Source: an uncultured Bacteroidales bacterium (GTDB taxonomy: Bacteria; Bacteroidota; Bacteroidia; Bacteroidales; UBA932). Taken from it: DNA of 64,000 bases. Of the stretch, positions 6,763-61,390 are shown one piece after another. Within the stretch, counting starts at the first letter, position 1; each line of letters starts with the position of its first letter. The notes under the pieces were generated by a model. That model searched no databases, was not told the DNA's origin, and saw nothing but the letters and a program-made list of their open reading frames with translations. Both the position numbers and the translations under genes were made by a program. The stretch covers positions 34,964 to 98,963 of the forward strand of contig CAMKSQ010000003.1 of assembly GCA_946415475.1 (NCBI GenBank). The letters are read 5' to 3'.

Positions 6763-7407
6763 ATGACAAAACTGATCATCTTGGATTTTGACGGAACCCT
6801 GGCCGACACCCGTGAGCTCATCGTCCGTACCAATCAGGAAGTGCAGCGCCAGATGCACTATCCCGTGCTTGCCGAAGCCCAGATTGTCTCCACCATCGGC
6901 CTTCCCCTGAAGGAGGGCATTCTGGCCATGTTCCCGGAGCTGCCGCAGGAGGAAATTCCTGCGTGGGTGGTCACCTATCGGGCCGTGTTTGATCAGTTGA
7001 AGAAGCAAATTATTCCCGGGGTGTTTCCGCACGTACGGGAAACGCTGGCCGCATTGGTGGAAGCGGGCTGCCGCTGCACTGTTGCTTCTTCCCGTGGAAC
7101 GGCATCCCTGACGGATTTCCTTCGCGATATGGGGCTCGCCCCCTGCATCTCCTACGTCCTGGGTGCCGACGATGTGAAACGTGCAAAGCCACATCCTGAA
7201 CCCGTCCTGAAGACCCTGAAGGACTTGTCCATAGATGCGGCCGATGCGCTGGTGGTAGGAGATATGCCGGTGGACATCCAGATGGGCCTGGGTGCCGGCG
7301 CCCACACCTGCGGCGTCACTTACGGCAATTCGAACCGCCCCGCCCTCCTGGCAGCCGGTGCGCACGCTGTGATTGATGACTTCGCAGAACTTCTGCGGAT
7401 TGTGTAA
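6763..7407 (+). CDS. HAD family hydrolase (phosphoglycolate phosphatase-like)
   Basis: LDFDGTLADT motif I, VASSRG motif II, K...VVGDMPVD motif IV. Confidence 0.85.
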   Translation: MTKLIILDFDGTLADTRELIVRTNQEVQRQMHYPVLAEAQIVSTIGLPLKEGILAMFPELPQEEIPAWVVTYRAVFDQLKKQIIPGVFPHVRETLAALVEAGCRCTVASSRGTASLTDFLRDMGLAPCISYVLGADDVKRAKPHPEPVLKTLKDLSIDAADALVVGDMPVDIQMGLGAGAHTCGVTYGNSNRPALLAAGAHAVIDDFAELLRIV

Positions 7408-7420
7408 TCCAGCCTGCCCC

Positions 7421-7620
7421 TTCTCATCCCGGACTTTCCTTCTCATCTCGGACTTGGCCATTCTCATCCCGGACTTGACTCGGGATCTCCTTCCCGTCAT
7501 GTCCAGCCCCGACTCTCCTCATCCCAGACTTGATCCTCCTCATCCCGGGCTTGATCCTCCTCATCCCGGGCTTGACTCGGGATCTCCTTCCCGTCATGTC
7601 CAGCCCCGACCGGGTATCTC
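7421..7620. repeat. 21-bp-period iterons (CTCCTCATCCCGGACTTGATC-type)
   Basis: Repeated TCATCCCGGxCTTGA(T/C)(C/T)C; two copies of ACTCGGGATCTCCTTCCCGTCATGTCCAGCCCCGAC. Confidence 0.8.
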
Positions 7621-7710
7621 TTTGCGCGAAGGTCCACCACATGGACCTTCCGTACACTTTTCCCCTGGATTCTTTGCGCGAAGGTCCACGCCCTGGACCT
7701 TCAGGACAAA

Positions 7711-7862: not shown

Positions 7863-7994
7863 GCCGTCCCCGGTTCTCATCCTTATTATCGCCTGTTTTT
7901 AAGGACGAACCCCGGTTTAAGACCCTCTCATCCTTGTTTTGGGCTAATTTTAAGGACGAGACACGGTTCTGCACCGTCTCTCCTCCCATCACCG

Positions 7995-8350
7995 TTAAAG
8001 CACACTCACCCTATCCTGGACTACCTCCAATGCCTCACCCTGTGCTTTAATTACTCTTTCTAACCCCGTTTAAAGCACACCCACTCCGCCCAGATCCACC
8101 TCCAGGGCAGCACCTTGTGCTTTAACTACCCTTTTAACACCCGGCTAAAGCACACCTGCCCTGTCCAGACCTACCTCCAAGACCCCATCCTGTGCTTTAA
8201 CTACCCTTTCTAACCCCGTTTAAAGCACACCCACTCCGTCCAGACCCACCTCCATGGCAGCACCTTGTGCTTTAACTACCCTTTTAACACCCGGCTAAAG
8301 CACACCTACCCCGTCCAGACCTACCTCCAATGCCTCGTGCTGTGCTTTAA
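7995..8350. repeat. Five-copy 75-bp-period palindromic repeat array
   Basis: 56-bp units (T)TAAAGCAC...GTGCTTTAA at 7995, 8070, 8145, 8220, 8295 (exact 75-bp period) with 19-bp spacers of two alternating types. Confidence 0.9.
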
Positions 8351-23844: not shown

Positions 23845-23896
23845 GCCGCGTTTACAGCTGAACGACGGTGTAGAGCCGATTTTTTGCAATCGCGGC
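23845..23896. repeat. Solo 52-bp REP-like unit
   Basis: GCCGCGTTTACAGC...TTGCAATCGCGGC; same ends as units at 28599, 30577, 34232. Confidence 0.75.
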
Positions 23897-26882: not shown

Positions 26883-28508
26883 ATGAAACGAATCGTACTG
26901 TTTTTCACCGCCATTGCGGTCTTTTCTGTGGGCGCAAATGCGCAATCTAAGGACTTCTCCCTGGGAAAATGGGTGGAAGTGAACAACGCCATTTTAAAAG
27001 AACTGAACCGTTCCTATGTGGACTCGCTGCAAGTGAGCCGCATCGAGCGCGCCGGCATCAACGCCATGCTGGAGGCGCTGGATCCTTATACCTTATATAT
27101 ACCGGAAGAGGAGCAGGAAGACTTCCAAATGATGCTCAACAGCGCCTACGGCGGCGTTGGGGCCATCATTTACAAGCCGGACCTGCAAGGGAACGTGATC
27201 ATCAACGAGCCCTACGAAGGCTCCCCTGCCGCCCTGGCGGGGCTTCGCTGCGGGGATGAGGTGATGGCGATCGACGGGCAATCCGCCGTCGGGCTCACCA
27301 GTGCCGAATGCAGCGAAAAGATGCGCGGCAAGCCGGGCACTACGGTAGTGCTCACTGTCAAGAAGTTACGCGCTGGAGAAAGTTGGAAGGCCGGCGACGT
27401 GCTGGAGGTTCCGGTGGTGCGGAAGCGCATCGTCCTGCCGTCCATGGAATACGCCGGCATGCTCAACGAGGCCGATGGCTACATCTACCTGAGTAAATTC
27501 ACGGAAGGCGTAGGACAGGACATCCGCGACGCCTACAAAAAGCTGAAAGCCCAAGGGATGCAGCGCCTGGTGCTGGACCTTCGCGGCAACGGCGGCGGCA
27601 TCATGGGCGAGGCCGTGAACATCGTCTCGCTCTTCATTCCCAAAGGCTCGGTGGTGGTGAGCGCCAAAGGCAAAGCCTCCACAGAACAGGTGTACAAGAC
27701 CACCACGGACGCCATCGACACGGAAATTCCCATTGTCGTTTTGGTCGATAATGCCTCGGCTTCGGCCTCGGAGATTGTCTCCGGCGCCCTGCAGGACTAT
27801 GACCGCGCCACCATCATCGGCACGCGTACGTACGGGAAGGGCCTGGTGCAGAGCATCCGTCCCCTGCCCTACGACGGCCAGCTCAAGCTCACTACGGCCA
27901 AATATTATACGCCTTCGGGTCGATGCGTGCAGGCTATCGACTACTCGCACCGCAACGAGGACGGATCCGTGGGCCACATCCCCGACTCGCTCACGCACGC
28001 CTTCACCACCGCCCACGGGCGCACCGTACGCGACGGCGGCGGCATCACCCCGGATTTCATCGTGAAGCCGCACAAATACTCCCGTCTCTCCTATTCCCTG
28101 GTGTATAGTGGCGTCATTGAACAGTATGCGCTGGACTATGTGCGGGCGCACGAGAGCATTCCCGCCCTGGAGGACTTCCATTTCGCTGATTATGAAGAGT
28201 TTATTACCTTTGCCAAGGACAAGGAGTTCGACTACCGTTCCTCGGCCCGGGCCCTGTTTGACGAGATGAAAAAGTCGCTGGCGGAAGATGGCCTCACGGA
28301 AGCTCTTTCCGGCGAACTCGACGCCCTGCAAAAATCCCTGGAAATGGACAAGGAAACCTTCCTGCGCCTGAAGAAGGATGAGATTGTCCCGTTTATCGAA
28401 GAGGAAATTGTCGTGCGCTACTACTTCCAGCAGGCCGGCATCCAGGTCCGCCTCCGTTACGACGACCAGCTGCGCGAGGCCCTGAAACAGCCCGCCATCA
28501 GCTGGTAA
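26883..28508 (+). CDS. S41 family C-terminal processing peptidase
   Basis: PDZ 'VNEPYEGSPAALAGLRCGDEVMAIDG'-like; 'LVLDLRGNGGGIMGEAVNIVSLF'; 'VLVDNASASASEIVSGALQDYDRATIIGTRTYGKGLVQ'. Confidence 0.93.
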   Translation: MKRIVLFFTAIAVFSVGANAQSKDFSLGKWVEVNNAILKELNRSYVDSLQVSRIERAGINAMLEALDPYTLYIPEEEQEDFQMMLNSAYGGVGAIIYKPDLQGNVIINEPYEGSPAALAGLRCGDEVMAIDGQSAVGLTSAECSEKMRGKPGTTVVLTVKKLRAGESWKAGDVLEVPVVRKRIVLPSMEYAGMLNEADGYIYLSKFTEGVGQDIRDAYKKLKAQGMQRLVLDLRGNGGGIMGEAVNIVSLFIPKGSVVVSAKGKASTEQVYKTTTDAIDTEIPIVVLVDNASASASEIVSGALQDYDRATIIGTRTYGKGLVQSIRPLPYDGQLKLTTAKYYTPSGRCVQAIDYSHRNEDGSVGHIPDSLTHAFTTAHGRTVRDGGGITPDFIVKPHKYSRLSYSLVYSGVIEQYALDYVRAHESIPALEDFHFADYEEFITFAKDKEFDYRSSARALFDEMKKSLAEDGLTEALSGELDALQKSLEMDKETFLRLKKDEIVPFIEEEIVVRYYFQQAGIQVRLRYDDQLREALKQPAISW

Positions 28509-28598
28509 GCGCTGCGGCCAGGCTACAGGCTCGGTACCCTTCGCCAAGAGCACACCGGCCAGTGTCTGTGCTCCCGATAGGCGCAGCGCCCCTCCCTG

Positions 28599-28733
28599 GC
28601 CGCAATTACAAAAAATCGCGTTCCTACACCCTTCCAGCTGTAAACGTGGCAACGATTTCGGCCGATAGGGCCCTTCCCCCGGCCGCGATTGCAAAATATG
28701 GGCACTACAGCCCCCTCCAGTTGTAAACGCGGC
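28599..28733 (-). repeat. 135-bp composite REP-like element (two 52-bp units, 31-bp spacer)
   Basis: Units 28599-28650 and 28682-28733, inverted relative to the copies at 30577 and 34232; abuts the RAYT-like stop codon. Confidence 0.85.
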
Positions 28734-29650
28734 TAAGGGATAATCAGACAGCGGCGGATTTGGTGCTCGGGGAGGTGGAATTCATTGGAGAGCTGCCGGG
28801 CAATGCGTTGCTTCTGGGTGGCGGTAAGCTGGTAAACGGACTGCACGCCATAGCCGGGCAGGATATCGTGATCAATGAGGTGACACACATCCAGGTCCTG
28901 CATGCGGCCATGTTTGAAATTGCGCCCGGACTCGTTTTTAAGCAGTTGGGCAATCGTGTTTTCATCGACCTGTTCCACATCCCGCAGGGTAATGGGCGGT
29001 CCGGTCTGGTCCTGCTGTTGCTCTTTGGCCCAACTCTCATCCGTAAGCCGGTTCATCTGGTACAGATAGTTGCGCGGCGTAACATAGTACTGTTCCACCT
29101 TCCTGATTTCCATGAAAGAACGCCGGAGGAATACTCCCTGGGCCGTCATCTGGTACTCGTCGGGGAATTCCGAGAAGCGCGGCAGGAAACTGGCAATCTC
29201 ATCCCGGGTCCAGTTGGCGGCCACTTCATGCTCCATTCCCAAATCATCGGCAAACTGCTCGCGGACAGAGCAATACGGATATCCAAACGACGTAGCGGCC
29301 GCACAATGGTGCAGGCCATTCCGCAAAATGTAATTGAACACTACCAGCTGGTGATAAAACCCGTCCACTTTGGAGATGAAGGTGTATTTTTCTCCAAATC
29401 GACCCCTTCTTCCATATTTCGTATTGAACCATTTGGTATAGGACATCCGGACTTGCCCGGCAAATCGGGAGGGCTGGGCTGTTAGCACGTTCATGTGCAC
29501 GTGGGTGGACATGTCCGCTTCACATTCCACTTCGGTTTCCATTGCGTAACCCCGCAGCGCCAGCAGGTTCACGAACATCCCGTGATCCTCCGCGTCCCTG
29601 AACAGAACCTCGTCGTGTGAGGTAAAGCATAGATGATACGACTCTTTCAT
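28733..29650 (-). mobile_element. REP-associated tyrosine transposase-like (RAYT, Y1/HUH) protein gene
   Basis: HUH motif in 'ADMSTHVHMNVLT'; 'RMSYTKWFNTKYGRRGRFGEKYTFISKVDGFYHQLVVFNYILRNGLHH' matches Y1_Tnp layout; C-terminal HTH-like extension. Confidence 0.75.
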
Positions 29651-29816
29651 GTCGCCAAGATACGTCCGGGAATCGGCAGAACCAAGAATCGGTTGAAAGA
29701 AAGTGTTGTTTCACATGTTTTTTTGCTGTTTCAACCGATTTGCCACCCGCCATTTTGTCAGTTTTTCCCGGAAGGCCCTTATTTTGCTATAAGGCGGAAA
29801 ACAGATTTTTAGAAAA

Positions 29817-30569
29817 ATGGGTGTTACAAAATGGATAACGGGCGTGCTGGGATGGGCCTATTTTGGTCCCCTGGGCGGCCTGATCGGCTTCTTGCTGGGA
29901 AGCGCAATTGAACAATATATAGATGTCTCCCACCAACTGCCTGGCGGAGATGCGCCTGCTGGTGGCCAGCGTGCCTATTCTGCTACAGAGCAACGGAACA
30001 GCTTTTTTGTGAGTCTGCTGGTGCTGTCATCGGCAGTAATTAAGGCCGATGGCAAAATCCACCCGGCAGAACTGAACTGCGTGCGGGACTTCTTCCGCCA
30101 CAATTTCGGGGAAGATGCGGCTGTCCAGGCCATGCAGATGCTGGAGCAGCTAAATGCCAGAGAGGTGAACATCTACCAGGTGGGCGACCAGATTGCCGCC
30201 AATATGAACTATTCCCAACGGCTGCAATTGTTCCACTATCTGGTCCAGATTGCCACGGCCGACGGGACTTTCTCCAAATCGGAGAAAAGCGTTCTGGAGG
30301 CCATTGGAACGGTGATTCGGCTAGGAGGCTCCGATGTGAACTCCGTCATTGCCATGTTCTACAAGGATACGGAATCGGCCTACGCTGTGCTGGGCGTGTC
30401 TCCCACTGCCAGCAATGACGAAGTTCGGGCGGCCTACCGTCGCATGGCAATGAAAAACCATCCGGACAAAGTGGCCACACTGGGACCGGATGTCCAGAAA
30501 GCCGCCGCGGAGAAATTCCGCCAGGTTCAGGAGGCCTACGAGGCCATCAAGAAAGAGCGCGGGCTATAA
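29817..30569 (+). CDS. TerB-like and DnaJ domain protein (DjlA-like)
   Basis: 'VLSSAVIKADGKIHPAELNCVRDFF...' TerB-like; C-terminal 'SAYAVLGVSPTASNDEVRAAYRRMAMKNHPDKV' J domain. Confidence 0.85.
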   Translation: MGVTKWITGVLGWAYFGPLGGLIGFLLGSAIEQYIDVSHQLPGGDAPAGGQRAYSATEQRNSFFVSLLVLSSAVIKADGKIHPAELNCVRDFFRHNFGEDAAVQAMQMLEQLNAREVNIYQVGDQIAANMNYSQRLQLFHYLVQIATADGTFSKSEKSVLEAIGTVIRLGGSDVNSVIAMFYKDTESAYAVLGVSPTASNDEVRAAYRRMAMKNHPDKVATLGPDVQKAAAEKFRQVQEAYEAIKKERGL

Positions 30570-30576
30570 AGGCCCG

Positions 30577-30711
30577 GCCGCGTTTACAGCCAGAAGGGGC
30601 TGTAGGGCCGATATTTTGTAATCGCGGCTGGGAAAACGGCCCTATCGGCCGAAATCGCTGCCACGTTTACAGCTGGAAGGGTGTAGGAGCGCGATTTTTT
30701 GTAATCGCGGC
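30577..30711 (+). repeat. 135-bp composite REP-like element
   Basis: Units 30577-30628 and 30660-30711 with GCCGCGTTTACAGC/TGTAATCGCGGC-type ends. Confidence 0.85.
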
Positions 30712-30719
30712 CGGAAGGG

Positions 30720-31970
30720 CTAGGTCCAGATGTAGACTTTGTCGCCGCGGCGGGGATGGACGGGGCCGGCGGGAACGGCCACGGAGCAGCGCCTGCCCTG
30801 GGGGCAGACCTCCGCGGGCTCCAGGTCCACGCGCAGGTCCTCTGCCACCACTTCCAGCGCGCCGGTGGTGCTGCCAATAAACAGCAGCGTGTCTCCGCGA
30901 TGCAGCGGGGTGGCGTCCACCTGGATTTCCACCACATTGATCTTGGCGAACCAGTTGGTTACTTTGCCAATGTAAATCTTGGTCCTGGTAGCCTGGGAGC
31001 CATATTTTGCGCTCCATTCGCCCATGCGGGCCCCCAGGTAGTAGCCGTCCCAGAAGCCCCGGTTGAAGACCGTGGCCAGGCGCTCCTTCAGACGGGTGCC
31101 CAATTCCGGGGTATAGCTGCCCTCCGCCACGGCATCGGCGGCTTCCCGGTAGCACTGGGCGGTGACTTGCACGTAATCCGCACTCCGGGCACGGCCCTCA
31201 ATCTTGAACACTTTTACGCCCGCTTCCACAAATTTGTCCAGAAAGTCTATAGTACACAGGTCCTTGGGGGACATGAGGTATTTGTTGTCCACGTGGATCT
31301 CGTTTCCGGTCTCGTAGTCGGTGAGGAGATACCCCCTGCGGCACACCTGCAGGCAGGCGCCCCGGTTGGCACTGGCACCATAGGCATCCAGCGACAGGTA
31401 GCACTTCCCGGAAACGGCCATGCAGAAGGCCCCGTGGGCGAACATTTCTATGCGGACGAGCGCTCCGGACGGGCCCGTAATCTCCTCAGCGACAATGGCT
31501 TCATGAATGGCCTTCACCTGCTCCAGGGTGAGTTCCCGCGCCAGCACTACTACATCCGCAAACTGGGCGTAAAAGCGGAGTGCCTCAATGTTGGAGATGC
31601 TCAGCTGGGTGGAAATATGCACCTCCAGGCCAATCCGGCGGCAATACAGAATGGCCGCCATATCCGAGGCGATGATGGCATCCACGCCCACCGCCTTGGC
31701 GGCGTCCAGGGTGTCGTACGCCGCTTGCAAGTCTTCCTCGTACAGGGTGATATTCAGGGTCATATAGGCTTTGACGCCGTTTTCCCGGCAAAGGCGCATG
31801 ATCTCCGGAAGGTCCTCCCGGGTGAAGTTGCCGGCCGAATGCGAGCGCATGTTCAGGTGGCCAATCCCAAAGTACACGGAGTTGGCACCGCCCTGAATGG
31901 CCGCATGCAGGCAGTCGAACCCGCCGGCAGGGGCCATAATTTCCAATTCTTTTTTCTGCATAACGTACAA
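30720..31970 (-). CDS. Peptidase U32 family protein
   Basis: 'ELEIMAPAGGFDCLHAAIQGGANSVYFGIGHLNMRSHSAGNFT', 'EMFAHGAFCMAVSGKCYLSLDAYGASANRGACLQVCRRGY'. Confidence 0.93.
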   Translation of the reverse strand: MYVMQKKELEIMAPAGGFDCLHAAIQGGANSVYFGIGHLNMRSHSAGNFTREDLPEIMRLCRENGVKAYMTLNITLYEEDLQAAYDTLDAAKAVGVDAIIASDMAAILYCRRIGLEVHISTQLSISNIEALRFYAQFADVVVLARELTLEQVKAIHEAIVAEEITGPSGALVRIEMFAHGAFCMAVSGKCYLSLDAYGASANRGACLQVCRRGYLLTDYETGNEIHVDNKYLMSPKDLCTIDFLDKFVEAGVKVFKIEGRARSADYVQVTAQCYREAADAVAEGSYTPELGTRLKERLATVFNRGFWDGYYLGARMGEWSAKYGSQATRTKIYIGKVTNWFAKINVVEIQVDATPLHRGDTLLFIGSTTGALEVVAEDLRVDLEPAEVCPQGRRCSVAVPAGPVHPRRGDKVYIWT

Positions 31971-32016
31971 AGGTACGCATTAAATTGCTATCTTTGCGTT
32001 CGCTAACCACAAAACT

Positions 32017-33024
32017 TTGATGAGAAAAACCTTCCTTATTATAATGTGCCTGCTGATGACAAGCGTGCTTGCATCGGCCCAGGTAGATTATGCTGCTATT
32101 GAGGCCAGGGGCGCGTTTGTCGTGAATCAAGGGAAACCGGGCGTCAGCGCAGATTTCCTGAATGTCCAGGTAATGGGGCACATTGGCCCGTCTCTGCGTT
32201 TCCGTTTCCGCCACAGGCTTACCAAACCCATTTACGACGCCAAAAACCCGCTCAACGGCACGGACATTATTTCCCTCACCTGGGACATTTCGCCCAAATG
32301 GAGCATTTCCGGGGGCAAGCTGCCCATCTTTATTGGCGGGTACGAGTGGGATGACGCCCCTATCGACGTATATTATTACAGCGGCTTCTGCAACGGCATC
32401 CAGCAGGTGTATGGCCTGGGCGGCTCGGTGTTTTTCCGTCCCAAGGAAGGCCAGGAGCTGGAGCTGCAGGTAACGCATTCTCCGCTACATGGCGGCAATC
32501 TGACGCGCTTTAATGTGGGCCTATGCTGGAGCGGTAGCTTCTTCCCCTGGTGGGAAACCAAGTGGAGCGTGAACTGGATTGACGATTATTACCATCACAT
32601 GATGGGCTATCTGGCTTTGGGCAACCGTTTCCAGATGGGCTCGGTGGTGGCCCTGGAGCTGGATTTGATGTACCGCCGCTGCCTTACACAGAAAAAGGCG
32701 CAGTTCGACGGTACCGTCATCGCCAAGATGGACTTCCGGATCAACGACAAATGGAATCTCTTCATCAAGGGATCCTATGACGAGAATGACCAGAATGTGG
32801 ACGATGAAGGCAATCCCTTCGACATGACCCTTCCTCCCGGCGCCTATTATTGGGTTGCCGGCGGAGGTATGGAATTTTTCCCGCTCGGAAACAGCGACCT
32901 CCGCATCCATGCCGTGGCCTGGACGGAGAGCGCCTCCAAGAAGGTGAGCGCATCTGTCGGCCTTACCTATTACTTTGATTTTGTGAAGATTATCAACAAA
33001 TACCATAAGCGCAAAGCGTCATGA
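32017..33024 (+). CDS. Outer-membrane porin-like protein
   Basis: Signal peptide; amphipathic beta-rich sequence 'FRFRHRLTKPIYDAKNPLNGTDIISLTWDISPKWSISGGKLPIFIGGYEWD'. Confidence 0.6.
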   Translation: MMRKTFLIIMCLLMTSVLASAQVDYAAIEARGAFVVNQGKPGVSADFLNVQVMGHIGPSLRFRFRHRLTKPIYDAKNPLNGTDIISLTWDISPKWSISGGKLPIFIGGYEWDDAPIDVYYYSGFCNGIQQVYGLGGSVFFRPKEGQELELQVTHSPLHGGNLTRFNVGLCWSGSFFPWWETKWSVNWIDDYYHHMMGYLALGNRFQMGSVVALELDLMYRRCLTQKKAQFDGTVIAKMDFRINDKWNLFIKGSYDENDQNVDDEGNPFDMTLPPGAYYWVAGGGMEFFPLGNSDLRIHAVAWTESASKKVSASVGLTYYFDFVKIINKYHKRKAS

Positions 33025-34169
33025 AGCAGCAATCCCGTATCCGCCGCTCAACCGTAGAGGCACTCGTTTTTCTGACCGTCCTTATTGCGGTATTCTCCCT
33101 GCTGGGGTGGCGCATGGGGAGCGGCAACATGCTTAAAACCATCATGAACACGGCACACGACCTGCTGCTCAATACCGTGTTCTACCTGATGGGCATTACC
33201 GTACTCACGGGCGCGCTGTCCAAGCTGATGTCGGAATTTGGCGTGGTGACGCTCCTGGAGCGTTTCCTGCGCCCGCTCATGAAGCCGCTCTACAACCTTC
33301 CTGGCGTGGCGGCACTGGGTGCCGTGATGACTTTCCTGTCGGACAACCCTGCCATCATCGCCCTGTCCAAGGACAAGACGTTCAGCGCCTATTTCAAGAA
33401 GTACCAGCTCATTTCCCTCACCAACTTCGGCACGGCCTTCGGCATGGGGTTCGTGGTGATTATCACCATGATAGGCTATGGCCATCTGGCAGGTGCACTT
33501 GTAGGTCTTTTCGGTGCTTTTTGCGGGTCGATTATCTCTACGCGCCTGATGCAGCGCAGCTGCCTGAAGGCCTATCCGGAACTGGATACCCCGGTGCAGA
33601 ACCAAGTGGCCGAAGAAATCGAGGACAAGCATGTAGAGCAGACCAAAAAGGACGGCATCTTCATGCGTTTCCTGAACGCTATCCTGGACGGTGGTAAAAA
33701 TGGTGTGGAACTGGGCCTGCAGATTATTCCGGGCGTCCTTATCATCACTACGGCGGTGATCATGATTACCTTCGGCGCCGGGCCGTCCGGCGTGTACGAT
33801 GGCTCATCGTCACAAGGCGTTCCCATCCTGCCCTGGCTGGCAGAAAAGATTCATTGGGTGTTCGAGTGGCTGTTTGGCTTCCAGCACATGGAACTCATCG
33901 CTTTCCCGATGACCTCCCTGGGTGCCGTGGGTGCCTCGCTGGGCCTGCTGCCCACCTTCAACGCTGCGGGCATCCTGGACGGCAACGCTATTGCCGTGTT
34001 CACCGCCAGCGGCATGTGCTGGAGCGGCTTCCTGTCCACCCACACCGCTATGCTGGACTCCCTGGGCTACCGCAAAGTCATCTCCAAGGCCATTGCCGCC
34101 CACGCCATCGCCGGTCTCTGCGCAGGCATCATTGCCCACTTCGTTTACCTGCTCGTTTCGCTGCTGTAG
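33021..34169 (+). CDS. Nucleoside recognition (Gate) domain membrane protein
   Basis: 382 aa polytopic; repeated gate-like segments 'NTVFYLMGITVLTGALSKLM', 'GLQIIPGVLIITTAVIMITFG'; 4-nt overlap with upstream gene. Confidence 0.65.
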   Translation: MKQQSRIRRSTVEALVFLTVLIAVFSLLGWRMGSGNMLKTIMNTAHDLLLNTVFYLMGITVLTGALSKLMSEFGVVTLLERFLRPLMKPLYNLPGVAALGAVMTFLSDNPAIIALSKDKTFSAYFKKYQLISLTNFGTAFGMGFVVIITMIGYGHLAGALVGLFGAFCGSIISTRLMQRSCLKAYPELDTPVQNQVAEEIEDKHVEQTKKDGIFMRFLNAILDGGKNGVELGLQIIPGVLIITTAVIMITFGAGPSGVYDGSSSQGVPILPWLAEKIHWVFEWLFGFQHMELIAFPMTSLGAVGASLGLLPTFNAAGILDGNAIAVFTASGMCWSGFLSTHTAMLDSLGYRKVISKAIAAHAIAGLCAGIIAHFVYLLVSLL

Positions 34170-34231
34170 CGGGCCGGGCTTGCGGCTCTGCTCTGCCGTG
34201 CGGCCTTCCTGTCGCCTGGCCTTGCCCCTTA

Positions 34232-34366
34232 GCCGCGTTTACAGCCAGAGGGGGCTGTAGGGCCGATTTTTTGTAATCGCGGCTGGGAAAACGGCCCTAT
34301 CGGCCGAAATCGTTGCCGCGTTTACAGCTGGAAGGGTGTAGGAGCGCGATTTTTTGTAATCGCGGC
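34232..34366 (+). repeat. 135-bp composite REP-like element
   Basis: Units 34232-34283 and 34315-34366; nearly identical to 30577-30711. Confidence 0.87.
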
Positions 34367-34474
34367 CGGAAGTGCCAGGCCAGGGCAGGGACCACGGCCA
34401 GGGCACCGAGCCGGAGGGCCCAGGCGGCAATTTGCAGGATTTTGCGTATCTTTGTACTCGATTTATCGAGTAAT

Positions 34475-36454
34475 ATGGGAAAACGCAATAATCGGAGCAA
34501 GAATCGCAGTTCCAGGAAGAAGAAGGCAAGGGTGGTCCCCGAATTCGTGGGGAAGGCCCTGATGTCGCGGGAAGGGTTTGTATTTGTACGCATCGAGGGC
34601 CAGGAGGAGGACGTCTATGTAAAGGCCTCCAAGACCCGCGGGGCATTGCACGGAGACACCGTGCGCGTGGCCGTGACGCAGGAGCGGACCGGCCAGGCCA
34701 AGCGGCGCAGCGGCGAGATCGTCGCCGTGGTGGAACGCTCCGGACGCCCGTTCGTGGGCATTCTGCATACGGTGGGCAAGCAGGCCTGGGTGCTCATGAG
34801 CTCCAAGACCATGCCCTATGACATCGAAGTTCCCGTTCCCAAAGGCGGCAAGCGCGGCATGAAGGTCGCGGCCGTTGTCGATGGCTGGGAGCGCGGCGCC
34901 AACTGCCCCTACGGCCACGTAGTGGATATCCTGGGCATGCCCGGCGAGAACGATACCGAGATGCACGCCATCCTGGCGGAATTCGGCCTCCCGTACAAGT
35001 TCGAGTCGCACGTGGAAAAAGCCGCGGACCAGATCCCGGACGTCATCACGCCCAAGGACCGCAAGGACCGCAAAGACTTCCGCGAAGTGCTCACCTTCAC
35101 CATCGACCCTACAGACGCAAAGGACTTTGACGATGCCCTCAGCTTCCGCAAACTGGACAACGGCAACTTCGAGGTAGGCATCCACATTGCCGATGTCACC
35201 TACTACGTGCAGCCCGGCTCAGCGGTGGACAAGGAAGCCGAGGCCCGCGGCACCTCCGTGTATCTGGTGGACCGCACCGTGCCCATGCTGCCGGAGAAGC
35301 TCTCCAACAAGCTTTGCTCCCTGCGCCCCAACGAGGAAAAACTCACTTTCTCGGCCGTCTTCGAACTCACGCCGCAGGCCAAGGTCTTGAACCCTTGGTT
35401 CGGCCGCACGGAAATCATTTCCGATTATCGCTTCGATTATGAAGGCGCGCAGGCCATCATCGAAGGCGCCAAGCCGGCAGACGTACCTGAACCCATCCAG
35501 GAGGCCATTCTCACCCTCAACGGGCTGGCCGCCAAGCTCCGCGCCAAACGCTTCAAGGCCGGTGCCGTGAACTTCGAGCGCCCGGAAATGAAAGTGGATG
35601 TGGACGCTGACGGCAAACCCATCGGCGTGCACCAGAAGTTCTCCAAGGAAGCCAACTGGCTCATCGAGGAATTCATGCTCCTGGCCAACCGCAGCGTAGC
35701 GGAATATGTTGCCAAAGCCAAGAAAACCTTCGTGTACCGTATCCACGACCTGCCCAACATGGAAAAACTGAGCGGCCTGCGGGACTTCGCGTCCCACTTC
35801 GGCTACAAAGTAGGCCCCATCGAGGACGGAAAGGACGTGGCCAAAACGCTCAACGGCCTCATGAAGGACGCCAAGGACAAGCCGGAGCTGGGCGCCATCC
35901 AAATCCTGGCCCTGCGCTCCATGGCCAAGGCTTGCTACTCCACGGAAAACATCGGCCATTATGGCCTGGCCTTCCCCTACTATACGCACTTCACCTCCCC
36001 TATCCGCCGCTATCCGGACATGATGGTACACCGCCTGCTGGCCCAGTACCTCGCCGGCGGCGCATCGGCCTCCAAGGACTTTTACACGCTGGAATGCAAG
36101 CACGCCTCCGAGCGGGAGAACGTGGCGGCAGAGGCGGAACGCGAGAGCATCAAGTACAAACTGGTGGAATTCATGCAGGACAAAGTGGGCCAGGAGTTCG
36201 ACGGCCACGTTTCCGGTGTCACTGAATGGGGCATTTACGTGGAAATCGAACCGACCAAAATCGAGGGCATGGTCCCCTACCGCACTATCAAGAGCGACTT
36301 TTTCATTTACGACGAAGAGCACTACCGGGCCGTGGGGCGCCGCTCTCACCGTTCCATCCGGCTGGGAGACCCGCTCCGCATCCGCGTAAAAGGCACCTCG
36401 CTGGAGCAAAAGCTCTTGGACTACGAATTGGTGGAAGAACTGCCCGAGAAATAA
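34475..36454 (+). CDS. rnr: Ribonuclease R
   Basis: 'FTIDPTDAKDFDDALSFRKLDNGNFEVGIHIADVTYYV', 'MLPEKLSNKLCSLRPNEEKLTFS', 'HFTSPIRRYPDMMVHRLL'; ATG 34475 preferred (track start 34313 reads through the REP element). Confidence 0.95.
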   Translation: MGKRNNRSKNRSSRKKKARVVPEFVGKALMSREGFVFVRIEGQEEDVYVKASKTRGALHGDTVRVAVTQERTGQAKRRSGEIVAVVERSGRPFVGILHTVGKQAWVLMSSKTMPYDIEVPVPKGGKRGMKVAAVVDGWERGANCPYGHVVDILGMPGENDTEMHAILAEFGLPYKFESHVEKAADQIPDVITPKDRKDRKDFREVLTFTIDPTDAKDFDDALSFRKLDNGNFEVGIHIADVTYYVQPGSAVDKEAEARGTSVYLVDRTVPMLPEKLSNKLCSLRPNEEKLTFSAVFELTPQAKVLNPWFGRTEIISDYRFDYEGAQAIIEGAKPADVPEPIQEAILTLNGLAAKLRAKRFKAGAVNFERPEMKVDVDADGKPIGVHQKFSKEANWLIEEFMLLANRSVAEYVAKAKKTFVYRIHDLPNMEKLSGLRDFASHFGYKVGPIEDGKDVAKTLNGLMKDAKDKPELGAIQILALRSMAKACYSTENIGHYGLAFPYYTHFTSPIRRYPDMMVHRLLAQYLAGGASASKDFYTLECKHASERENVAAEAERESIKYKLVEFMQDKVGQEFDGHVSGVTEWGIYVEIEPTKIEGMVPYRTIKSDFFIYDEEHYRAVGRRSHRSIRLGDPLRIRVKGTSLEQKLLDYELVEELPEK

Positions 36455-48682: not shown

Positions 48683-51600
48683 TTATTTGGCAGCGTAAGT
48701 CACTTTAAGGGAGACAATACGTACCTGATTGTCTGTAGCCGTAAAGGCAACTGAGCTGGAAGAACCTTCCCACACACCATCCTTATCATTATAAGAATAA
48801 CCTGCCGGTGCACCAGCGCCCCAGCAACCAGGGCCCTGTTTGGTAGTACCACTGGCCGTGCAGGTGAATTCAATCTTGGTAACCACGTAACCGGAAGCTG
48901 CGCTCACCGTAAAGGTTTGGCTCTTATAAATGCGTAATTCAGTTACCGCAGTACCGTTATAGTTGGAAGAGTTGGTGAAGGAAATCACATCATTCATGGC
49001 TACAGTTGCACCATTGTCGGCAGCAGCAGCTAACTGGCTCTTATCAAAAGAAACATTGTTTCCATCACCGCCACCGGGTTGGTCACCACCACCAGGCTCG
49101 TCACCGCCACCGGGTTCATCGCCACCACTAGAAGCAGTGGTAACACCGTTGAGGCTATATAGGTAGGCCTTGCCGCCTCCCTGGGTTTCGGCCGTGGTAT
49201 TGTACTTGGCCAGAGGTCCATAAAGAACCACCTCGTCTCCAACAGCCACCTCGGCATTGCCTTCCACCCACTTCTTGCCCTCCAGGTATTCGACCTGATA
49301 GGCCTCGAAGCTGGCGTCGCTGGTCGTACCGTCATCCGTGATGAAGAAGACTGCACGGTTGTTATTGGCTATAGCGTAGTTGTAGTTGATCTTCTGGACC
49401 TTACCCTTTACATAATACTTGGTTTCGCCAGTGTTGTTGTTACCCTCAATATTAGCCATTATCCAAGCATGGGCCTCACTGGCAGTAAAAGCAGTCTCAA
49501 GCGTAAGACCATCATTGCCAGCGGGCTCGTCACCGCCACCCTGACCATCCGTGTATTCAAGGATGGCTGCATCTACAACTTCATGCTGGCTCTTGTTTGC
49601 ATAATAGTCATACTTGCCAGCAATAGTGATGGTGCCTCCGTCCTTGATCTTGTTCTTCCACTCATCCGTCTTGTAGGCAGCAAGCACGCTATACACATAG
49701 ATGGTGCCCGATGCGTCCGTAAGGTCGAAGCTGCAATAAGTAGGATTGAACTTAGATACCGTACCGGTGAGCTTGTAGTACGTACTCTTGTCTGCAAGCT
49801 GGATGAATTCCGCAACAGTCTTAGACGCAGCGGTGCTATAGTCATCTCCGCCGCCTTCTCCATCCGTGTACTCAAGGATAGCGGCATCTACAACTTCATG
49901 CTGGCTCTTGTTTGCATAATATTCATACTTACCAGCAATAGTGATGGTGCCTCCGTCCTTGATCTTGTTCTTCCACTCATCCGTCTTGTAGGCAGCAAGC
50001 ACGCTATACACATAGATGGTGCCCGATGCGTCCGTAAGGTCGAAGCTGCAATAAGTAGGATTGAACTTAGATACCGTACCGGTGAGCTTGTAGTACGTAC
50101 TCTTGTCTGCAAGCTGGATGAATTCCGCAACAGTCTTAGACGCAGCGGTGCTATAGTCATCTCCGCCGCCTTCTCCATCCGTGTACTCAAGGATAGCGGC
50201 ATCTACAACTTCATGCTGGCTCTTGTTTGCATAATATTCATACTTACCAGCAATAGTGATGGTGCCTCCGTCCTTGATCTTGTTCTTCCACTCATCCGTC
50301 TTGTAGGCAGCAAGCACGCTATACACATAGATGGTGCCCGATGCGTCCGTAAGGTCGAAGCTGCAATAAGTAGGATTGAACTTAGATACCGTACCGGTGA
50401 GCTTGTAGTACGTACTCTTGTCTGCAAGCTGGATGAATTCCGCAACAGTCTTAGACGCAGCGGTGCTATAGTCATCTCCGCCGCCTTCTCCATCCGTGTA
50501 CTCAAGGATAGCGGCATCTACAACTTCATGCTGGCTCTTGTTTGCATAATATTCATACTTACCAGCAATAGTGATGGTGCCTCCGTCCTTGATCTTGTTC
50601 TTCCACTCATCCGTCTTGTAGGCAGCAAGCACGCTATACACATAGATGGTGCCCGATGCGTCCGTAAGGTCGAAGCTGCAATAAGTAGGATTGAACTTAG
50701 ATACCGTACCGGTGAGCTTGTAGTACGTACTCTTGTCTGCAAGCTGGATGAATTCCGCAACGGTCTTTGCCTCAGCTTTGCTGTAGTCTTCGTCGCCACC
50801 TTCACCATCCGAATATTCAAGGATGGCGGCGTTTACAACCTCATGTTGACTCTTGGCAGAATAATATTCGTACTTACCGGCAATGGTGATGGTGCCACCA
50901 TTCTTAATCTTGTTCTTCCATTCATCCGTCTTATATTCATCAAGTACGCTATAAACATAGATGGTACCGGATGCGTCCGTAAGATCGAAGCTGAAATAGT
51001 TAGAACTGAACTTGGAGACCTTACCGGTGAGTTTATAGTACGTACTCTCGTCTGCAAGCTCAATGAATTCCGCAACGGTCTTTGCCTCCGCTTTGGTATA
51101 GTCATCGTCGCCGGGCGCGCCGCCTTCGCTCTTTCCATTGAGACTATAGATGAAGCTGCCGCCCTTGCTCACGGTTTCAGGCGTGTTGCCCTTGAAGTTA
51201 ACCACCTTACCGCAGATAATCACTTCGTCGCCTTGTTTAACTTCGGTGTCGCCGCTCTTCCACTTACGGTTGCCCAGATAGTAAGTCTGGTATACATAGA
51301 AGCTTTCGCCGCCGTCTTCATCGACCACATAGAATGTTGCATTGCCATAGGTGCCGCTAGCCTCGAAGGTGGTGGACACCTCGGAGATCTTGCCCTCGAA
51401 GAAGATATTCTTCTCGCTGGCTTGATCGGCGGGGAGGGAACGGGTATACTCCAAGACTCCCGCTACGTTGAACGGATTCTCCAGGGTACCGTCGCCATTG
51501 TCGATCTCGCCTTCCGGACCTGCCTGCTCGATGGTGAGGGAGGCACGGGCAAAGCCGATGGTAAACACGATGGTGGCAGAACGGTTGTACTCGGTGTTCT

Positions 51601-59380: not shown

Positions 59381-59543
59381 CGTCATGCCCGGCTCTGCTC
59401 CTCCTCATCCCGGACTTGATTCCCCTCATCCCGGCCCTGCTCCTCCTCATCCCGGACTTGATCCTCCTCATCCCGGCTCTGCTCCTCCTCATCCCGGACT
59501 TGATCCGGGATCTCCTCCCCGTCACGCCCGGCTCCGACCGGGC
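59381..59543. repeat. 21-bp-period iterons (CTCCTCATCCCGGACTTGATC-type)
   Basis: About six 21-bp units alternating TCATCCCGGACTTGATC / TCATCCCGGCTCTGCTC. Confidence 0.85.
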
Positions 59544-59674
59544 TTAAAGCACACCTTCCATGCCCAGAGGCCCCTCTATGGCCTTGCCTTGTGCTTTAAC
59601 CACTCTTCCCGACCCCGCTTAAAGCACACCTTCCATGCCCAGAGGCCTCTCTATGGCCTTGCCTTGTGCTTTAA
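59544..59674. repeat. Two-copy 75-bp-period palindromic repeat
   Basis: TTAAAGCAC...GTGCTTTAA units 59544-59599 and 59619-59674; same 56+19 bp geometry as 7995-8350. Confidence 0.9.
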
Positions 59675-61264: not shown

Positions 61265-61307
61265 GGGAAGTGACTGATATACAGCATGTTACCGATCACC
61301 CTGCGAG

Positions 61308-61361
61308 GAGATCCCGGATCAAGTCCGGGATGAGGAGGATCAAGTCCGGGATGAGGAGGGC
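61308..61361. repeat. Palindromic ATCCCGGATCAAGTCCGGGAT repeats, inverted orientation
   Basis: Reverse complement of the TCATCCCGGACTTGATCC units at 7421-7620 and 59381-59543. Confidence 0.8.
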
Positions 61362-61390
61362 CGGGACCGGGAAATGGACCGTAGCGGGAA

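Follow-up and report, generated by a model that had tools for sequence, protein, structure and literature searches.

Proteobacteria are the best-known source of REP/RAYT systems. The TnpA_REP/RAYT proteins that accompany REPs and REPINs in E. coli, Pseudomonas and Stenotrophomonas are Y1 HUH enzymes with the fold of the PDB structure 4er8 (PMC2817692; PMC6006769). In these systems there is one gene per repeat family, with several families per genome and palindromes flanking the gene; enzyme and repeat coevolve, and the protein diverges fast. In E. coli, TnpA_REP cuts REPs in single-stranded form at CT dinucleotides and joins the strands again (PMC8266576). TnpA_REP subclass 2.6, found in Bacteroidetes, has proteins of about 179 aa with the motifs NH[LIV]H, WQ and YIH[QN]NP, and atypical structures that flank the gene and have copies elsewhere in the genome; GTAG is missing from the structures that flank genes of subclass 2.6 and class 3 (PMC6006769). 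TIRYTs, which probably correspond to subclass 2.1 of PMC6006769, are longer proteins with a C-terminal helical domain. Their TIRtrons carry non-REP repeats without GTAG, which can form families and clusters, and many TIRYTs, not all, have GGGGWSAS in the flanking repeat (PMC3733652).

The locus described here lies in a stretch of 64,000 nucleotides from an uncultured Bacteroidales bacterium, hereafter the window. It very probably represents a REPtron-like system from a divergent branch of TnpA_REP/RAYT in a rumen Bacteroidales genus, and it resembles the characterized systems in all the features listed for TnpA_REP/RAYT, from the enzyme type and fold to the coevolution with the repeat. The lack of a GTAG foot and the signature Y---NG in place of Y---NP are real departures from the family. 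The missing GTAG foot is not diagnostic alone, since the repeats of subclass 2.6 and class 3 lack it too (PMC6006769). Other differences are the length of the protein (305 aa), the two long direct self-palindromic units in place of one short REP or a pair in inverted orientation, the few and local copies of this repeat family, and the bracketing of gene blocks with a restriction system.

The host phylum, the atypical flanking structures and the copies elsewhere in the genome recall subclass 2.6, but the window protein is longer, has THVH and YILRNG, and lacks W at the corresponding place. The longer protein, the C-terminal helical domain and the families of non-GTAG repeats recall TIRYTs and TIRtrons. 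Unlike in those, the adjoining element is a composite doublet, arrays have a period of 82-83 bp, and GGGGWSAS is absent, as read by eye on both strands of 28599-28733. The catalytic fold and residues are those of IS200/IS605; in contrast to multicopy IS200/IS605 elements, the gene here is single-copy and diverging, with arrays and solo elements. A search of a limited literature collection returned no paper joining REP elements, restriction-modification, inversion, transposase and Bacteroid- names.

The HUH protein and its adjoining element

The initial annotation reported an ORF with the motifs THVHMNVL and FNYILRNGLHH, and the ORF is as described there (Table 1). In an alignment of 27 family members with identity down to 17%, including four paralogs from the window's genome at 17-21% identity, H50, H52 and Y107 are invariant, and G172, Q297 and R300 likewise. 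Several relatives carry Y---NP. The window protein itself has no match in Pfam, NCBIfam models or PDB sequences, and the anticipated Y1_Tnp hit failed in this respect. Y1_Tnp of Pfam is, however, matched by 11 of the 27 members, and these matches overrule the missing one. NCBIfam NF047646, the REP-associated tyrosine transposase, is matched by 12 of the 27 (best E value 3e-12). The AlphaFold model has a pLDDT of 94.8. Among 350,542 PDB chains, its top fold match is 4er8, in which E. coli TnpA_REP is bound to a REP hairpin (E value 7e-5); Y1 transposases also fill the following 28 places. The invariant HUH and Tyr residues, the Y1_Tnp and NCBIfam matches in relatives and the TnpA_REP fold of the model establish the predicted product as a Y1-type HUH protein. 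A C-terminal HTH-like domain had also been proposed. The model has three C-terminal helices in residues 252-302, compatible with HTH, and no HTH model matched the window protein. The gene is present in one copy in the window's genome, where the next best match is 23% identical.

Table 1. Positions of the gene, its elements, the bracketed blocks and the parallel systems (window positions unless a locus is named)
Feature	Position	Strand	Remark
RAYT-like Y1 HUH endonuclease gene	28733-29650	-	305 aa; HVH residues 50-52, predicted catalytic Tyr107 in YILRNGLHH
Element E1	28599-28733	+	135 bp; two direct 52-bp units, 31 bp apart
E1, first 52-bp hairpin unit	28599-28650	+	predicted fold weak
E1, inter-unit spacer, 31 bp	28651-28681	+	contains GGCCGATAGGGCC
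E1, second 52-bp hairpin unit	28682-28733	+	1-nt overlap with stop codon of HUH gene
Element E2, double unit	30577-30711	-	inverted relative to E1; 8 nt past stop of TerB-DnaJ gene
Element E3, double unit	34232-34366	-	inverted relative to E1; 5' side of RNase R-like (RNB-domain) gene
Single 52-bp unit	23845-23896	-	one unit, not a doublet
Block A: HUH gene, TerB-DnaJ gene	28734-30576		between inverted elements E1 and E2
Block B: peptidase U32, unnamed gene, Gate-domain gene	30724-34231		between E2 and E3
Paralog C57	L027:3165-4028		own palindrome family, 52-bp period
Paralog C7	L028:8889-9797		own palindrome family, 51-bp period
Paralog C18	L029:9080-10000		own palindrome family, 52-bp period
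Paralog C38	L030:9076-10008		own palindrome family, 75-bp period
Two AAGGTCCA..TGGACCTT palindromes	7629-7701		52-bp period; C57-paralog family, parallel system
Two units	7875-7976		51-bp period; resemble C7-paralog family, parallel system
Array of TAAAGCAC..GTGCTTTA palindromes	7996-8349		75-bp period; C38-paralog family, not that of the window gene
Two further TAAAGCAC..GTGCTTTA palindromes	59545-59673		parallel system

The reported 1-nt overlap with a 135-bp element of two direct units was confirmed: base 28733 is common to the TAG stop (28733-28735, minus) and the end of the second unit. Each 52-bp unit is an imperfect palindrome with 12-bp arms (e.g., GCCGCGATTACA and TGTAAACGCGGC), with one mismatch in most units of the window. 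The units start with GCCGC and end with GCGGC, and have no GTAG or GTGG foot tetranucleotide. The two-REP inverted hairpin of the REPIN type is not seen, as the units are direct and each is palindromic by itself. Folding of both units as single-stranded DNA was borne out for the second only, which is predicted to fold at -11.9 kcal/mol (z -3.6), whereas the first folds poorly; the whole 135-mer is also predicted to be able to pair end to end. A scan of 28300-35000 against Rfam gave no match, and so no described RNA family is found there. A CRISPR was considered and dismissed, because the whole unit represents a related hairpin family, not constant repeats with unrelated spacers.

Beyond E1, three further copies of the element (two doublets and one single unit) are located within 11 kb. 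In the window, the 5' arm pattern has 8 sites against 2.0 expected and the 3' arm pattern 9 against 0.6, with 0/100 shuffles in both cases. Genome-wide, as counted by pattern and BLAST searches only, the strict unit pattern occurs 7 times, all inside one 10.5-kb stretch, and four divergent doublets with 71-82% identity are present on other contigs. The supposed occurrence of the 52-bp unit elsewhere in the genome was borne out in part: its copies are few and mostly local.

Eight named orthologs with 61-87% identity come from assemblies of uncultured, largely rumen, Bacteroidales. In each of the eight, a distinct version of the element lies at the stop codon or within about 50 nt of it. Where at least two units are present, the period is 82-83 bp, and up to 22 units are observed. 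The arm sequences vary by species (ATTACA, ATTGCA, AATCCA, TCGACA, TTTGCA and TTGACA), and complementarity is kept. Arm pairing was scored in 192/204 cells against 167 after arm shuffling (P 5e-5, a guide only, as the score is based on 17 hand-picked units from related sequences), and at the species level in 92/96 against 77. Protein and arm similarity are correlated (Mantel r 0.50, P 0.015). One repeat brackets 20 of 30 HUH genes but 17 of 260 other ORFs (P 7e-14). Distribution of the HUH gene is patchy, with presence in 93 of 250 family genomes. The GmrSD proteins encoded beside it in some relatives are 84-93% alike where the HUH proteins are 65-74% alike, indicating faster change in the enzyme gene than in the gene next to it. 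At the sequence level, the co-varying elements at all eight closer orthologs support a cognate relation between enzyme and element. Together with the residues, the family models and the TnpA_REP fold, they support the original proposal of a REP/RAYT system in a Bacteroidota lineage.

Some related loci have additional genes nearby. Similar membrane-like proteins of 158-159 aa are encoded between the element and the HUH gene at L077:8449-8928 and L080:10124-10600; that of L080 belongs to no Pfam family. A Fic-family gene with a winged-helix domain (PADLOC SoFic-like) is located just upstream of the HUH gene and element array at L067:5946-6953. L068 (CAMHDS010000084.1) is a contig binned to Fibrobacter that is near-identical to the window's genome, probably due to mis-binning.

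Parallel enzyme-repeat pairs in the same genome

The window's genome contains four distant RAYT-like paralogs on contigs C57, C7, C18 and C38, each flanked by a palindrome family of its own (Table 1). The initial annotation mentioned neither these paralogous systems nor the bracketed and inverted gene blocks described below. For the C18 and C38 paralogs, the arrays on the two sides are oppositely oriented. Across the 2.25 Mb of the genome, 81 copies of one palindrome family and 37 of another were counted, against 0 for the reversed control pattern, and the C7 family has 17 strand hits by the strict pattern (control 0). These copy numbers are minima, since several contigs start or end inside arrays. 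The window itself contains units from three paralog families at 7.6-8.35 kb and from one near 59.6 kb.

Other repeats were observed in the window. Short CTCATCCCGGACTTGATC-type repeats in both orientations are found at 7406-7614, 59388-59542 and 61305-61372, and two of these three places adjoin palindrome arrays. Five tandem copies with a 315-bp period, 83-96% identical, are located at 49527-51086.

Gene blocks bracketed by the element

Compared with the related loci L060 and L061, block A is inverted and so is block B, and elements are present at their boundaries. At L060, the junction of the S41 gene and the TerB-DnaJ gene carries no element. The genomes are drafts, mostly metagenome assemblies, which fail at repeats, and some inversions could be assembly errors; for the window blocks this is argued against by the single arrangement shared by L060 and L061. 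Outgroups gave no polarity: in 27 more distant relatives, the TerB-DnaJ gene has no HUH, S41 or U32 gene within 1.5 kb.

The flanks of the HUH gene are inverted in the window (E1 and E2) and direct at L062-L066. At these five loci, a distance of about 3.7-3.9 kb separates two direct copies of the element, and between them lies a module of three genes, for a GmrSD-N/HNH nuclease, an EcoRI-type methylase and the HUH protein (domains tested in L062). The module's terminal stop codons are some 1-15 nt away from the elements, and in four of the five genomes the two copies are 87-100% alike over 133-145 bp. The module is found at three loci. One adjoins fadD, and uvrA follows after a carboxylesterase gene; another is the interval from secDF to dnaE; the third adjoins a GH92 gene.

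The comparison with empty forms covered secDF|dnaE and uvrA|fadD. The secDF|dnaE site holds nothing but a terminator in two close species; in one further species a solo doublet is present and dnaE is inverted. The uvrA|fadD site is empty in two species and has a solo doublet in one, which is a 92% match to the right copy of L062 plus flank; uvrA is inverted in several species. Presence and absence at orthologous sites, a comparison that the initial annotation suggested for sister strains, are seen in sister species as occupied, solo and empty states.

Related loci vary in further ways. In the secDF|dnaE intergenic site of L132-L161, the palindrome family differs by species; of the loci in which dnaE is visible, 7 have it inverted with respect to secDF. 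The orientation of the uvrA next to fadD in L164, L166, L168, L181 and L190 is opposite to that in L167, L171 and L172. The restriction pair has no flanking repeats in L118, L119, L122-L126, L128 and L129, some of which are on short contigs. At L127:8345-12667, a restriction pair of the same type, with a split methylase frame, is located next to a RAYT-like gene similar to the C18 paralog; pair and gene are flanked by 238-bp direct repeats of another palindrome family. In L120 and L121 the restriction pair lies between other repeats, and no HUH gene was found.

Dispersal of the element and movement of the blocks

By analogy with the characterized enzymes, the most likely substrates of the Y1 HUH enzyme are units of its own element family, recognised in folded single-stranded form. 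Tyr107 would cut next to the folded units, and the enzyme would then rejoin the strands. Such cutting and rejoining would allow the elements to disperse, to stay alike within a genome and to change together with the enzyme. Bracketed blocks may relocate or invert either by strand transfer by the enzyme or by homologous recombination between near-identical copies.

It is about an even chance that the enzyme disperses only the small elements, and that RecA-type recombination between near-identical 135-bp copies relocates and inverts the blocks, namely the restriction module, the TerB-DnaJ block, dnaE and uvrA. The similarity of the module-flanking copies in four of five genomes fits this explanation, as does the inverted block flanked by the inverted copies E1 and E2. 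Solo elements at sites that hold the module elsewhere are what recombination between direct copies would leave. However, block B is inverted with respect to L060 and L061 although E2 and E3 are now direct, and some junctions with an inverted dnaE, such as that of L135, carry no element. RecA-type recombination competes with movement of blocks by the enzyme more than with the assignment of the system to the TnpA_REP/RAYT family.

A tentative proposal, which would be the less expected outcome, is that the hairpin doublets serve the enzyme as portable attachment sites, and that blocks of several kilobases, the type II restriction-modification module included, are cut out, inserted and flipped by the enzyme itself. 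It is unlikely that the unit from element through GmrSD, methylase and HUH genes to element is an autonomous IS200/IS605-type single-strand transposon, moving as a whole with the restriction system as a passenger. The same gene order with elements near both ends at three unrelated loci, and sister species that are empty at two of the three, would be expected of such a transposon. Five orthologs are, however, too few to show transposition; the element stands alone at other sites, homologous restriction pairs exist without the HUH gene or flanking repeats, and the window's genome has one copy of the gene, which shows the fast divergence typical of RAYTs.

The single copy, the conserved catalytic residues and the C-terminal helical domain are also consistent with a domesticated host factor, such as a replication or repair protein, with the elements as its binding sites and the apparent mobility incidental. 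This is quite improbable given the patchy presence of the gene, its fast divergence, its changing loci and the co-varying arrays. An IS200-like relic placed by chance beside an unrelated tandem or MITE-like repeat, as the few elements and the lack of a direct family match for the window protein might suggest, is hardly credible. It is contradicted by all eight closer orthologs, in which gene and element are adjacent and co-vary, and by the bracketing of HUH genes.

The REPtron-like assignment to a divergent TnpA_REP/RAYT branch places five parallel enzyme-repeat pairs in one genome of this lineage. The restriction module in the element-bracketed blocks represents an anti-phage system at changing genome places in related species. 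The question at stake is whether RAYTs move anything larger than a REP. If true, a cargo-moving RAYT would run against the view that a REPtron does not transpose as one unit. If the enzyme does move the blocks, domesticated Y1 transposases would be tied to the shuffling of defence genes and to local inversion of gene order in rumen Bacteroidales.
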